Shown here: one piece after another, positions 2,555 through 20,164 of the stretch | How positions within the stretch are numbered: position 1 is the first letter of the stretch | Layout: each line of letters opens with the position of its first letter | Assembly (NCBI RefSeq): GCF_951230135.1 | Contig: NZ_CATNVC010000017.1 | Coordinates: 1-40,137 of the forward strand | Source of the DNA: Butyricicoccus sp. Marseille-Q5471 | GTDB taxonomy: Bacteria; Bacillota; Clostridia; Oscillospirales; Butyricicoccaceae | Reading direction: 5' to 3' | DNA length: 40,137 bases | Notes under the pieces: generated by a model | Databases searched by the model: none | The model's input: the letters and a program-made list of their open reading frames with translations, nothing else | Told to the model about the DNA's origin: nothing | Program-made: the position numbers and the translations under genes

Positions 2555-3637
2555 TTAACGGTCCATGTAGCCCTCGGCGCACAGCAACTCCGCCATCAGG
2601 ACGGCGCCGCCGGCAGCGCCGCGCAGCGTATTGTGGGAAAGGCTGACAAACTTGTAGTCGTAAATGCTGTCCTCGCGAAGACGGCCAATCGAAACACCCA
2701 TGCCGCCTTCCAAATTGCGATCCAACTTGGTCTGCGGACGATTGTCTTCTTCAAAATAAGCAAGAAAATGCTCGGGAGCAGAGGGGAGTTTCAACTCCTG
2801 TGCGCGGCCGGAAAAATTCTGCCAACGGCGAATCATCTCATCCTTGCTCGGCTTGGTTTTGAATTTCACAAAGGCTGCAGCCATGTGACCATCTGCTACG
2901 GGAACGCGCAGGCACTGCGCGGTGATGACAGGCGAGACGGCGGACTCGATATGATCGCCGACAATCTTACCCCAAACCTTCATCGGCTCCTTCTCGCTTT
3001 TCTCTTCCTCGCCGCCAATGTAGGGGATGACATTATCAAGCATCTCCGGCCAGGATTCAAAGGTTTTGCCGGCACCGGAAATCGCCTGATAAGTGCACAC
3101 TGCAACCTCGGTCGGCTCAAAATCCATCAGAGCGGTCAGCGCGGGCACGTAGCTCTGAATTGAGCAGTTTGATTTTACAGCAATAAAACCGCGTTTGGTG
3201 CCAAGACGCTTACGCTGTTCGGGAATAATCTGTGCGTGGTCGGCGTTGATTTCCGGAATAATCATCGGCACGTCAGGGGTCATGCGATGCGCCGAATTGT
3301 TAGAACAAACCGGGCATTCGAGCTGCGCATATCGCTCCTCCAGCGCGCGGATTTCATCCTTTTTCATATCGACCGCACAGAAAATAAAGTCTACCATCGA
3401 AGCAATCTGCTCTGCATCGGCGGTTGCATCGAACATAACCATGTCTTTGTATTTTTCCGGCATCGGATCGGCCATTTTCCAACGGCCTTCGCAGGCTTCT
3501 GCGTAAGCTTTACCGCGGTTACGGCCGGACGCTGCGAGCGCTACGACATCAAACCACGGATGATTTTCGAGCAGCAGCGAAAAACGCTGACCTACCATGC
3601 CGGTTGCACCGACGATACCGACTTTGTACTGTTTCAT
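2555..3637 (-). CDS. asd: Aspartate-semialdehyde dehydrogenase (archaeal/fungal-like subtype)
   Basis: NADPH-dependent enzyme that reduces aspartyl phosphate to aspartate semialdehyde, the branch-point metabolite for lysine, threonine and methionine. The 360-residue protein has the Rossmann motif GATGMVGQRF (10-19), the active-site cysteine Cys158 in KSNCSIQ, and the conserved RVPVADGHM segment with His251. It ends with a C-terminal dimerisation part including SHNTLRGAAGG. The SNCSIQ context, the VADGH motif and the length resemble the archaeal/fungal branch of Asd (TIGR00978 type) more than the classical E. coli or Bacillus branch; this assignment is from memory of the families. It is the first gene of asd-dapA-dapB and is preceded by a lysine riboswitch. 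A gggagg site precedes the ATG. Confidence 0.93.
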   Translation of the reverse strand: MKQYKVGIVGATGMVGQRFSLLLENHPWFDVVALAASGRNRGKAYAEACEGRWKMADPMPEKYKDMVMFDATADAEQIASMVDFIFCAVDMKKDEIRALEERYAQLECPVCSNNSAHRMTPDVPMIIPEINADHAQIIPEQRKRLGTKRGFIAVKSNCSIQSYVPALTALMDFEPTEVAVCTYQAISGAGKTFESWPEMLDNVIPYIGGEEEKSEKEPMKVWGKIVGDHIESAVSPVITAQCLRVPVADGHMAAAFVKFKTKPSKDEMIRRWQNFSGRAQELKLPSAPEHFLAYFEEDNRPQTKLDRNLEGGMGVSIGRLREDSIYDYKFVSLSHNTLRGAAGGAVLMAELLCAEGYMDR

Positions 3638-17744: not shown

Positions 17745-18254
17745 ATGCAGAAAATTGCCAAGTTCCACAAGGTAAGTGAAAAGCAGTTTATCCGTGACTG
17801 GACTGCGGTCAGCGGGACGAATGCTGCCATTGCGCAGCGTCTCTATCAGGAAATCAAGCTGCCGCGCCGTGCGACGGTCGGATCGGCGGGGTATGATTTC
17901 TTTTCCCCCGAGGGTTTTACACTGGCGCCGCATGAGACCATCGCCGTGCCGACCGGCATCCGCGCCGAAATTGCAGATGGTTGGGTGCTGCAGCTGTATC
18001 CCCGTTCGGGACTGGGATTTAAGTTCCGCCTGCAGATGAACAATACCGTGGGCATTATCGACAGCGACTATTTTTATGCCGATAATGAGGGGCATATTTT
18101 TATCAAGCTGACGAATGATACCAATGAGGGTAAAACCGTTTCCATTAAGCAGGGAGATGGCTTTGCGCAGGGTATTTTCCTGCCGTTTGGCATTACAGAG
18201 GATGATGATGCAGATGGTGAGCGCCGCGGTGGCTTTGGCAGTACAACAAAATAA
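17745..18254 (+). CDS. dut: dUTP diphosphatase
   Basis: Hydrolyses dUTP to dUMP, preventing uracil incorporation and supplying dTMP synthesis. The 169-residue protein has all five trimeric dUTPase motifs in order: GSAGYDFF (46-53), YPRSGLG (85-91), the uracil-binding motif NTVGIIDSDY with catalytic Asp106 (100-109), GDGFAQGIF (137-145) and RRGGFGSTT (160-168). Relative to E. coli Dut it has about 30 extra N-terminal residues and a variant motif 4, features shared with many Firmicutes proteins as I recall them. It is co-transcribed with nrdD-nrdG, a functional pairing: reductase product feeds directly to dUTP control. Confidence 0.92.
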   Translation: MQKIAKFHKVSEKQFIRDWTAVSGTNAAIAQRLYQEIKLPRRATVGSAGYDFFSPEGFTLAPHETIAVPTGIRAEIADGWVLQLYPRSGLGFKFRLQMNNTVGIIDSDYFYADNEGHIFIKLTNDTNEGKTVSIKQGDGFAQGIFLPFGITEDDDADGERRGGFGSTTK

Positions 18255-18265
18255 GTGCAACTCTT

Positions 18266-18296
18266 CAGCCGGCCTATTGAGCCGGCTGTTTTTTTC
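18266..18296 (+). terminator. Terminator of nrdD-nrdG-dut
   Basis: cagccggc / gccggctg with loop CTATTGA followed by eight T residues. It closes the operon cleanly. Confidence 0.92.
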
Positions 18297-18357
18297 TATC
18301 GGGACAGGAACCGAATGCTGTGCACGCGCTTATACTGTGGTAGGAGCGTGATGCGCA

Positions 18358-18504
18358 ATGTTCTGTAGGCTGCAGGCTATCGGGTTGATTCTAATCAGCT
18401 TTGGCGTTGGTGTCCTGATTGGCGGTTTGCTTCCGTCATTCCTCGCCATCTGGCTCGTTTCGCTTGCGCTGATCGCGGCCGGCGTGATCATTGCAGGATT
18501 ATGA
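18358..18504 (+). CDS. Small two-helix membrane protein of unknown function
   Basis: A 48-residue reading frame, almost all hydrophobic. The sequence starts MFCRLQAIGLILISFGVG and contains two probable transmembrane helices (about 8-24 and 29-47) around GGLLPSFLA. The ribosome-binding site aggag (18342-18346) is 11 bases before the ATG; an out-of-frame ATG at 18351 gives only five codons. The stop is 15 bases before the SpoVM-like ORF, and both genes share a terminator, so they form one small transcript. Short Cys-Arg-containing hydrophobic proteins with this opening are familiar to me from other Clostridia, but no function is known. The position next to sporulation genes suggests, but does not prove, a spore role. 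Confidence 0.6.
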   Translation: MFCRLQAIGLILISFGVGVLIGGLLPSFLAIWLVSLALIAAGVIIAGL

Positions 18505-18519
18505 CGAGGAGGTGCCAGC

Positions 18520-18591
18520 ATGAAAGTTGTCATTTGGGAGAGCCCGAAATATCTGAAGGGACTGCTCAGCAGGCTGTTCCACATTACCTAA
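18520..18591 (+). CDS. spoVM: Probable SpoVM-like spore morphogenesis micropeptide
   Basis: A 23-residue peptide, MKVVIWESPKYLKGLLSRLF plus HIT, with an excellent ribosome-binding site (gaggaggtg, 6 bases upstream). SpoVM of Bacillus is a 26-residue amphipathic helix that recognises the curved forespore membrane and anchors SpoIVA. Here the landmarks are kept: MK start, Pro9-Lys10, Leu12, Gly14, then an amphipathic C-terminal half with basic residues. Short length, position and composition fit; overall identity is modest because the peptide is so short. The strongest support is context: the next two genes encode a SipL-like protein and SpoIVA, its known partner. It is followed by its own terminator. 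Confidence 0.75.
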   Translation: MKVVIWESPKYLKGLLSRLFHIT

Positions 18592-18598
18592 AGTAAAA

Positions 18599-18626
18599 AG
18601 CAGAGGCAATTGCCTCTGCTTTTTTC
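18599..18626 (+). terminator. Terminator after the SpoVM-like ORF
   Basis: agcagaggca / tgcctctgct forms a perfect hairpin (18599-18620, with central AT) followed by TTTTTT. It separates the micropeptide transcript from sipL. Confidence 0.92.
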
Positions 18627-18653
18627 ATATCTGAGCGAAGAGGGACATATCGT
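18625..18653 (+). promoter_or_regulatory. Possible sigma-E-type sporulation promoter for sipL-spoIVA
   Basis: TCATATC (18625-18631) matches 6 of 7 positions of the Bacillus sigma-E -35 consensus kmATATT, and CATATCGT (18646-18653) partly matches CATACAhT at a 14-base spacing. It is about 40 bases before the sipL start. Mother-cell expression would be expected for these genes. Confidence 0.4.
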
Positions 18654-18688: not shown

Positions 18689-20164
18689 ATGGAACTGAAT
18701 CAAACAAGCATTAGCTACTATGACCGGCGGCTTGCGCGCACTGCTACTTGCAACGAAACAGCCGATTCGATCGTACCGGATACTTTTCCGGACATCGGAC
18801 GCGTCGTATGCGCGTATGGTGTAGCGTCCATCAAGGATCAGTCGCCGCAGAATGACCGCCTGCTGGTATCAGGTGTCGTCAAGACAACAGTTGTTTACCA
18901 ACCCGAGGAGGGAGGAGGTCTGCGGAGGCTGAGCATACCGATCAGCTTCGCGCATATCGAGGATTGCGAAGGTCTGGATGCGAACACCGTATGCTATGTA
19001 CAGTGCAGCGTAGCCGGAATCGAAGCAACCGCAGTGAACAGCCGAAAGCTCAGCGTAAACGCACAGCTCTGCTTTGAAATGGATGGATATCAAAAGGCAG
19101 ATTGCACGGTTACGGAAAGCGTATCCGGCACGGATATCGAGCTGATGTGTACACCTTGCACAGTATCGCTGATTGAACAGACACAAGTCAGTCAGTTCAC
19201 GGTACTAGAGGATGTTAATTTGCCGGATGCCGCTGATTTGGCGCTGCTGCATACACAGTGCGCACTGCGCGTGAGCGAGTGCCGTGCAATGCACGGTAAG
19301 GTGGTATTAAAGGGCGAAGCAGCGATTACGTGCCTTGCCCTGCAGGAAGATGATGCAGTACGTGTGCTGACCAGCAGTACACCGTTCACGCAGATCATCG
19401 AGATGAATGATGTAAGCGAAAATGATATGGTCGCGGCGCGGCTTTCGGCGCGCGAGGTCGATTGCCGGCTGGAGCCGGATGGCCTGCTGTCCTACACAAT
19501 TGGCGGATCTGCGCTATTTACTGTTCGCCGGATGCAAACGCTGAAAAACATCGATGATCTTTATATTCCCGGCAAGCAGCTTCACCTAAAAGAAGAGAAA
19601 GTAACCATCCATACGATGCCGCCAACAACACAGGCCATGGCTGAGGCGAGTGAAACGCTCCAAACCGCCCAGCGAGCATCGCATATCATCTCGTCCACGG
19701 CGGTGTGCTGTGGGGTGAAGCAGAAAGAAAAAGACGAAGCGGTATTGACCACTTCCGTTCAAATTCTGTACCTCAATGAAGATCAGCAGTTGTGCTCACT
19801 ACAGCGTACGCTGCCGCTTACCGTTTCGTGCACTTCGCGCGGTGTCCTGTCACAGGTAGAGTTAAATGCGCGAGCAACGCCGTCTGGTGAACAGGGAATC
19901 GCACTGACTGTCAGTATGACCGGACAGATAGCAGCGGAGTCGCGCTGCACATTCCGCAATATTGATAGCTATGAGGTCAGCGAATCGGAGGGTGTCAACA
20001 GCGGAATCACGCTGGTGCTTCGTTTTATCGATCAGGAACAGCCGCTTTGGGATATTGCCAAAGCCTGCGGTACGACAGTGAATGCTATTCGGCAGGCAAA
20101 CGAGCTGCCGAGTGAAGCAGCCGCAGTGTCGAATACCATGCTGCTGATTCCCATTCAGTCGTAG
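18689..20164 (+). CDS. sipL: SipL-like spore coat morphogenesis protein (DUF3794/SPOCS plus LysM)
   Basis: Predicted mother-cell protein that binds SpoIVA and helps encase the forespore, like SipL of Clostridioides difficile and functionally like SpoVID of Bacillus. The 491-residue protein has DUF3794/SPOCS repeat regions: the first follows ADSIVPDTFPDIGRVVCAYG and includes LLVSGVVKTTVVYQ, and later copies appear around ALRVSECRAMHGKVVLKGE and in the C-terminal half (SIQILYLNEDQQLCSLQ is similar in layout). A C-terminal LysM domain begins near residue 450 (PLWDIAKACGTTVNAIRQAN) and ends in LLIPIQS. No signal peptide is seen, consistent with action from the mother-cell side. An aaaggagg site precedes the ATG. 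It is 13-16 bases upstream of spoIVA. Confidence 0.88.
   Translation: MELNQTSISYYDRRLARTATCNETADSIVPDTFPDIGRVVCAYGVASIKDQSPQNDRLLVSGVVKTTVVYQPEEGGGLRRLSIPISFAHIEDCEGLDANTVCYVQCSVAGIEATAVNSRKLSVNAQLCFEMDGYQKADCTVTESVSGTDIELMCTPCTVSLIEQTQVSQFTVLEDVNLPDAADLALLHTQCALRVSECRAMHGKVVLKGEAAITCLALQEDDAVRVLTSSTPFTQIIEMNDVSENDMVAARLSAREVDCRLEPDGLLSYTIGGSALFTVRRMQTLKNIDDLYIPGKQLHLKEEKVTIHTMPPTTQAMAEASETLQTAQRASHIISSTAVCCGVKQKEKDEAVLTTSVQILYLNEDQQLCSLQRTLPLTVSCTSRGVLSQVELNARATPSGEQGIALTVSMTGQIAAESRCTFRNIDSYEVSESEGVNSGITLVLRFIDQEQPLWDIAKACGTTVNAIRQANELPSEAAAVSNTMLLIPIQS

Follow-up and report, generated by a model that had tools for sequence, protein, structure and literature searches.

The 40,137-nucleotide stretch of Butyricicoccus sp. 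Marseille-Q5471 DNA analyzed here (the window) raises the question of whether a very short frame beside two sporulation genes encodes a SpoVM too divergent for standard models to recognize. A sequence-only reading of the window had proposed a 23-codon ORF 5' of sipL and spoIVA with an optimal ribosome-binding site. Both statements hold: the frame occupies 18520-18591 (+) exactly, and GAGGAGGT, 6 nt before its ATG, is a strong site (Table 1). Searched against Pfam and NCBIfam, the window peptide matched 0 families.

Table 1. Features around the peptide gene, in window coordinates.
Feature	Position	Strand	Basis or remark
dUTPase (dut)	17745-18254		Pfam match
Terminator-like hairpin (18266-18288) with T tail, the cassette's upstream border, 3' of dut	18266..18298	+	terminator scan
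TATACT, -10-like box	18331..18336	+	TATA[CAT]T in 24/25 closest loci
AGGAGCGTGATGCGCAATG, Shine-Dalgarno (SD) and leader of TM48	18342..18360	+	GGAG[CT]GTGAT in 23/25 closest loci
TM48 (name coined here), 48-aa predicted two-helix hairpin ORF	18358..18504	+	15 nt upstream of peptide gene
Shine-Dalgarno GAGGAGGT of peptide gene	18506..18513	+	6 nt before ATG, 1 nt past upstream ORF stop
Peptide ORF, putative SpoVM ortholog, 23 aa	18520..18591	+	ATG to TAA, 23 codons, MKVVIWESPKYLKGLLSRLFHIT
Hairpin AAAAAGCAGAGGCAATTGCCTCTGCTTTTTT just 3' of peptide gene	18595..18625	+	-20.7 kcal/mol, z -6.62, 0/200 shuffles as stable
TCATATCT-13 nt-CATATCGT before sipL	18625..18653	+	read from sequence
sipL (SPOCS + LysM; PF12673 plus LysM)	18689..20164	+	domain match
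spoIVA, 492 aa	20181..21659	+	TIGR02836, E 8.6e-198; residue 486 Gly

The proposal had been tied to conservation of the peptide, beyond that of the DNA, in related genomes and to a coding-type pattern of substitution, and both were found. Within the genus, 21 of 24 genomes contain a peptide match; the three that do not are assemblies of 78, 81 and 78% completeness. Across the 60 genomes searched, the window's own included, 44 gave a match at E<=1. The conserved core comprises 22 residues and has the consensus MKVVVWKSPK.L.GILR.LF.I in profile A1, which was built from 23 Oscillospirales peptides. Mean pairwise differences among 25 distinct DNA sequences of the gene (24 from the family and 1 from the order) were 0.207, 0.085 and 0.463 at first, second and third codon positions, respectively, with a pS of 0.733 versus a pN of 0.121. 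Third positions vary most, and the peptide is under purifying selection at the protein level.

Profile searches related the peptide to SpoVM. Profile A3, whose 43 copies were gathered independently of the Pfam model (which nevertheless matches one of them, from G423), had B. subtilis SpoVM (2MVH) as its top PDB match with an E of 0.0034, the runner-up standing at E 2.3. The broader profile A2 matched 2MVH at E 8.9e-8, a value that is partly circular because A2 includes 7 sequences retrieved via PF08183; a PDB search with the narrow profile A1 did not find SpoVM. Aligned without gaps, the window peptide and B. subtilis SpoVM are identical at 6 of 22 residues, and 52 of 100,000 shuffles were as good. 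These identities, and lengths of 23 versus 26 residues, bear out the sequence-only description of the peptide as shorter than the Bacillus sequence and far from it. Copies of the family form a continuum, exemplified by MKIVVLKMPKFIGKILKAVFRID, MKIIVLKMPKFLGGILKKLLRIT and MRIVIIKLPKFIGSLIRRLSGKL, towards the B. subtilis sequence MKFYTIKLPKFLGGIVRA. The standard Pfam model, PF08183, misses the family of the window peptide: it exceeded its cut-off in none of 60 relatives and in 1 of 393 genomes of the class, there as a partial match in a longer frame. Because only this one genome was matched while 287 of the 393 have SpoIVA, we read the model as too narrow rather than decisive.

Individual residues add detail to this picture. 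The accessible text of Ribis et al. 2017 (PMC5607322) names K2, I6, P9 and I15 as important residues of B. subtilis SpoVM, with Ile6 required for SpoIVA binding and Gly486 of SpoIVA as the partner residue. The window peptide has both Lys2 and Pro9, the latter invariant across all 23 rows of A1, along with a conservative L15 for I15 and W6 where B. subtilis has I6; residue 486 of the window SpoIVA is Gly. Of the SpoVM-like layout claimed earlier, the MK start, Pro9-Lys10, Leu12 and Gly14 are in place, whereas the amphipathic argument is weak by itself, the hydrophobic moment of the window peptide being reached by 8.4% of shuffles and thus not significant. B. subtilis SpoVM itself does no better (10.2% of shuffles), and the moment was rejected as evidence for SpoVM.

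The peptide keeps company with SpoIVA across the class. At E<=1e-3, with E calculated per single genome, profile A1 found 126 of 393 Clostridia genomes, and SpoIVA was present in 122 of these versus 287 of 393 overall (Fisher p 6e-16, with genomes treated as independent); 4 of the 126 were without SpoIVA. Profile A2 matched 196 genomes at the same threshold, 189 with SpoIVA and 7 without, and 225 of 393 at E<=0.05, of which 215 have SpoIVA. No A2 match was obtained even at E<=0.05 in 72 of the 287 SpoIVA genomes. The family is mostly single-copy per genome. Judged by these profiles, SpoVM-like peptides are widespread in Clostridia and lie mostly below the Pfam model.

The gene neighborhood proved more variable. 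The peptide had been described as sitting beside SpoIVA, which is true in the window, an Agathobaculum-like genome whose SpoIVA has its best named relatives, at 84% identity, in records of Agathobaculum and Butyricicoccus; the position of sipL is not constant among the 26 closest loci, however. Window included, sipL lies within the fetched 1.5 kb in 14 of the 26 and was not seen there in 12, two of which are shortened by a contig end. The classical rpmB address was not found at the window peptide locus, and two ORFs upstream in the window are presumably nrdD and nrdG. Elsewhere, 37 of 60 fetched loci contain at least one of L28, RsgA, Rpe, ThiN, PP2C, Asp23 and a PrkC-like kinase within about 5 kb on each side, and L28 is downstream on the opposite strand in 22. 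These 60 loci were picked by hand (58 from A1 matches over many families and 2 from PF08183) and are therefore no random sample; neighbor genes were assigned by Pfam on one representative each, the kinase by eye. In locus L050 (~3135-3363, + strand coordinates), the peptide gene and the ORF upstream of it lie between dut and sipL as one inverted block. The Pfam domain match of the window dUTPase starts at residue 36, leaving an N-terminal extension. Because the peptide is conserved, selected at the codon level, accompanied by SpoIVA, found in relatives with classical neighbors and linked by A3 to 2MVH, it looks like a divergent SpoVM ortholog, and the SpoVM assignment made from the window sequence is upheld.

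That assignment gave sipL and spoIVA as the context of the gene and overlooked the 48-aa ORF, TM48, that precedes it by 15 nt. AlphaFold predicts TM48 as helices at residues 5-22 and 29-47 with moderate confidence (mean pLDDT 71.3, pTM 0.38). Across 20 distinct equal-length sequences, pS was 0.562 and pN 0.212, the same selection signal as in the peptide gene in weaker form. Small ORFs near spoIVA in relatives, suggested earlier as a check, included the peptide in 19 of 30 loci, and all 19 have a hairpin ORF directly 5' of it; the remaining 11 have neither in the fetched stretch. The 48-aa hairpin ORF is not incidental and is a steadier neighbor of the peptide than sipL.

A profile of 25 such ORFs (A4) extended this association. 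Of 142 loci entered, 121 distinct ones were kept after duplicates and loci without a 15-bit peptide score were dropped, and in 86 of them the peptide is immediately preceded by the best small-ORF match to A4 within 1.5 kb, or in 61 of 96 when loci whose best match is itself an A4 member are excluded. Among 60 relatives, 42 have an A4 match at E<=0.01, exactly one in 40 of these, and in each of the 36 relatives with both a hairpin and a peptide match, fewer than 300 nt separate the two. Another 8 have a peptide match only, 6 a hairpin only and 10 neither. Five of the six hairpin-only relatives carry a SpoVM-like peptide, missed by BLAST, just 3' of the hairpin; none was seen after the hairpin of the sixth, G052. 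The 72 SpoIVA-positive genomes lacking an A2 match include 40 with a hairpin at E<=0.01 and 24 at E<=1e-5, compared with 11 and 6, respectively, among the first 80, in handle order, of 106 SpoIVA-negative genomes. Since five of the latter six have an A2 match, SpoIVA may simply be missing from their assemblies. Several weak hairpin matches are located in long frames and probably reflect chance. The window hairpin had no match in Pfam or NCBIfam. The 25-member alignment yielded only single-member matches at E<=0.01 and no family that covers the group, and individual scans of four hairpins produced weak matches below the curated cut-offs. Loci L160-L162 have a second hairpin-like ORF ~230-450 nt upstream of the peptide that scores 19-28 bits with A4, an arrangement resembling tandem duplication. 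On profile and positional data, the hairpin family looks like a widespread, little-noticed partner of SpoVM.

Sequences flanking the two small genes suggest a unit of its own. Upstream of the -10-like box, a GTCAC, GCAC or TTCAC box is positioned at exactly 19 nt in 19 of the 25 closest loci; no GTCAC-type box was found before TATACT in the window copy. The closest loci thus show a block like TGTCACC.TTT-N-GCTTATACTGATGACAGGAGCGTGATGCGCAATG 5' of the hairpin ORF, with spacing that we take to resemble a sigma-E promoter. A sigma-70 scan listed nothing at 18331-18336, and a promoter-pattern search of two genomes gave 1 forward match versus 5 forward and 3 reverse for a reversed control pattern. 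The leader of TM48, from SD to ATG, is conserved well beyond the SD itself, and the window copy also has a 5-codon ATG frame that overlaps the TM48 start. Hairpins flank the two small ORFs on both sides, so that they look like their own transcription unit. The hairpin after the peptide gene is probably a terminator between this cassette and sipL, although a terminator pattern scan did not list it. A crude search found a similar hairpin 3' of the peptide in only 10 of the 25 closest loci, and this border is therefore not general. The TCATATCT/CATATCGT pair that follows, in front of sipL, resembles a sigma-E promoter.

Exceptions to the pairing allow a different view, in which the 48-aa hairpin gene is the main object of conservation and the downstream peptide an accessory that genomes can lose. 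We read 34 loci (30 + 4) with hairpin matches from the 40 SpoIVA-positive, A2-negative genomes. A SpoVM-like ORF was present downstream of the hairpin in 11 of the first 30; in the other 19, none starts within 150 nt downstream, and 18 of these 19 retain L28 in the locus. Nine of the 19 belong to family f42 (L210, L211, L212, L215, L223, L226, L229, L230, L231), in which the hairpin ORF is kept near rpmB (L28). The SpoVM-like ORF was also absent from three of the four further loci. Such loci favor this view. Against it, by profile, 35 of the 121 peptide loci have no hairpin directly upstream, as do the 8 of 60 relatives with a peptide match only. Moreover, in the accessible text of PMC5607322, disruption of the probable C. 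difficile counterpart, CD25622, causes about the same mild defect as disruption of spoVM. We consider the primacy of the hairpin gene improbable.

A second type of exception concerns Pro9, the only fully conserved residue in the SpoVM set aligned in PMC5607322, whose accessible part calls it essential for recognition of positive curvature. In Oscillospirales family f23, the peptide that comes after the hairpin lacks Pro9 in five genomes of three genera, which have four distinct sequences, such as MKVVVVKGSKFWGFVLRKMFHIKKEQ (L217, L218, L222, L224, L232; L199 and L217 come from one genome). Pro9 is retained in G358 and G216, also of f23, and likewise at locus L246. Elsewhere, Pro occupies position 8 (L175, L190 and L193).

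Divergence of this degree could also mean that the window frame encodes some other conserved micropeptide, basic and amphipathic like SpoVM (a leader, say, or an antimicrobial-like peptide), that neighbors sipL by chance. Only 6 of 22 residues agree with B. subtilis SpoVM, there is no Pfam match, Trp replaces Ile6, and the profiles also give a weak score to piscidin, a short basic helix that is unrelated. Yet the family grades into copies that neighbor rpmB and thiN, the classical setting of spoVM, occurs mainly in SpoIVA genomes and mostly once in each, and has SpoVM as its top PDB match, all of which make this alternative very unlikely. That the frame is nothing but conserved DNA in a sipL regulatory region is scarcely conceivable, for although it lies just 5' of sipL, its variation is concentrated at third positions with pS far above pN, frame and upstream ORF occur away from sipL elsewhere and are inverted together in L050, and a stable hairpin separates the frame from sipL.

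Taken as a whole, the ORF is very probably spoVM, with a SpoVM-type role and expression from a two-gene unit. By analogy with the SpoVM literature, the peptide would be made in the mother cell early in sporulation. It would lie in the outer forespore membrane as a basic amphipathic helix kinked at Pro9 and would recognize the convex curvature of that membrane. It would bind SpoIVA near the C-terminal end of that protein and, with SipL, help attach the SpoIVA shell to the forespore. Its gene would be second in a hairpin-flanked unit, after that for the 48-aa two-helix protein, which may be a membrane partner in the same step. We extend this more tentatively, and with slightly less than even confidence, to the proposal that most Clostridia make the SpoVM layer via a two-gene cassette in which the hairpin belongs generally to the outer forespore membrane, helps place or hold SpoVM/SpoIVA, works even without SpoVM and perhaps relieves the need for Pro9 in one Oscillospirales family. 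Natural Pro9-less copies would allow a direct test of the kink model of curvature sensing. The hairpin gene also serves as a second marker, having led to peptides that sequence searches had missed. Galperin et al. 2012 (PMC3533761, accessible part) did not find SpoVM in several clostridia and left distant versions open; our profiles answer part of that question by suggesting distant clostridial SpoVMs in many genomes.

Compared with B. subtilis SpoVM (PF08183; PDB 2MVH), the window peptide shares a gapless 22-residue match with M1 K2, P9-K10, L12 and G14, a basic amphipathic second half and SpoIVA in the same genome. It differs in having 23 rather than 26 residues, W6, L15 and no basic tail. 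B. subtilis spoVM adjoins rpmB, whereas the window gene is beside sipL-spoIVA; proximity of spoVM to rpmB is described as conserved in the available text of PMC5607322. In the literature within reach, with subscription journals mostly outside it, no description of the window gene came up, and one likely relative of the hairpin appears, in the accessible part of PMC5607322. There, C. difficile spoVM, near rpmB and under sigma-E, shares a transcript with the gene preceding it, CD25622, whose functionally uncharacterized 50-aa product is found primarily in Peptostreptococcaceae (apparently unique to them, according to a legend). The C. difficile locus thus resembles ours in its ~50-aa gene directly upstream of spoVM and in the presence of SpoIVA and SipL, and differs in that the window pair is not near rpmB. 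TM48-type ORFs, with two predicted hydrophobic helices, share with CD25622 a length of ~50 residues and a position directly upstream of spoVM, and the more classical SpoVM loci L196-L198 (family f74) also show an upstream hairpin. Position and size make CD25622 a probable member of the hairpin family, whose range would therefore extend far beyond one bacterial family. As reported in the same accessible sections, disruption of CD25622, probably polar on spoVM, resembled spoVM disruption in effect, heat resistance falling 3- to 5-fold and the coat being detached in ~20% of cells; the authors judged CD25622 itself of little impact, which argues against a strong role for the hairpin in C. difficile. 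SpoVM is described there as largely dispensable in C. difficile, and the hairpin is a candidate for how Clostridia hold the coat in such a setting. On this evidence, the window peptide is a divergent SpoVM and as such of a known kind, and the more novel part of the locus is the conserved hairpin gene upstream of it.
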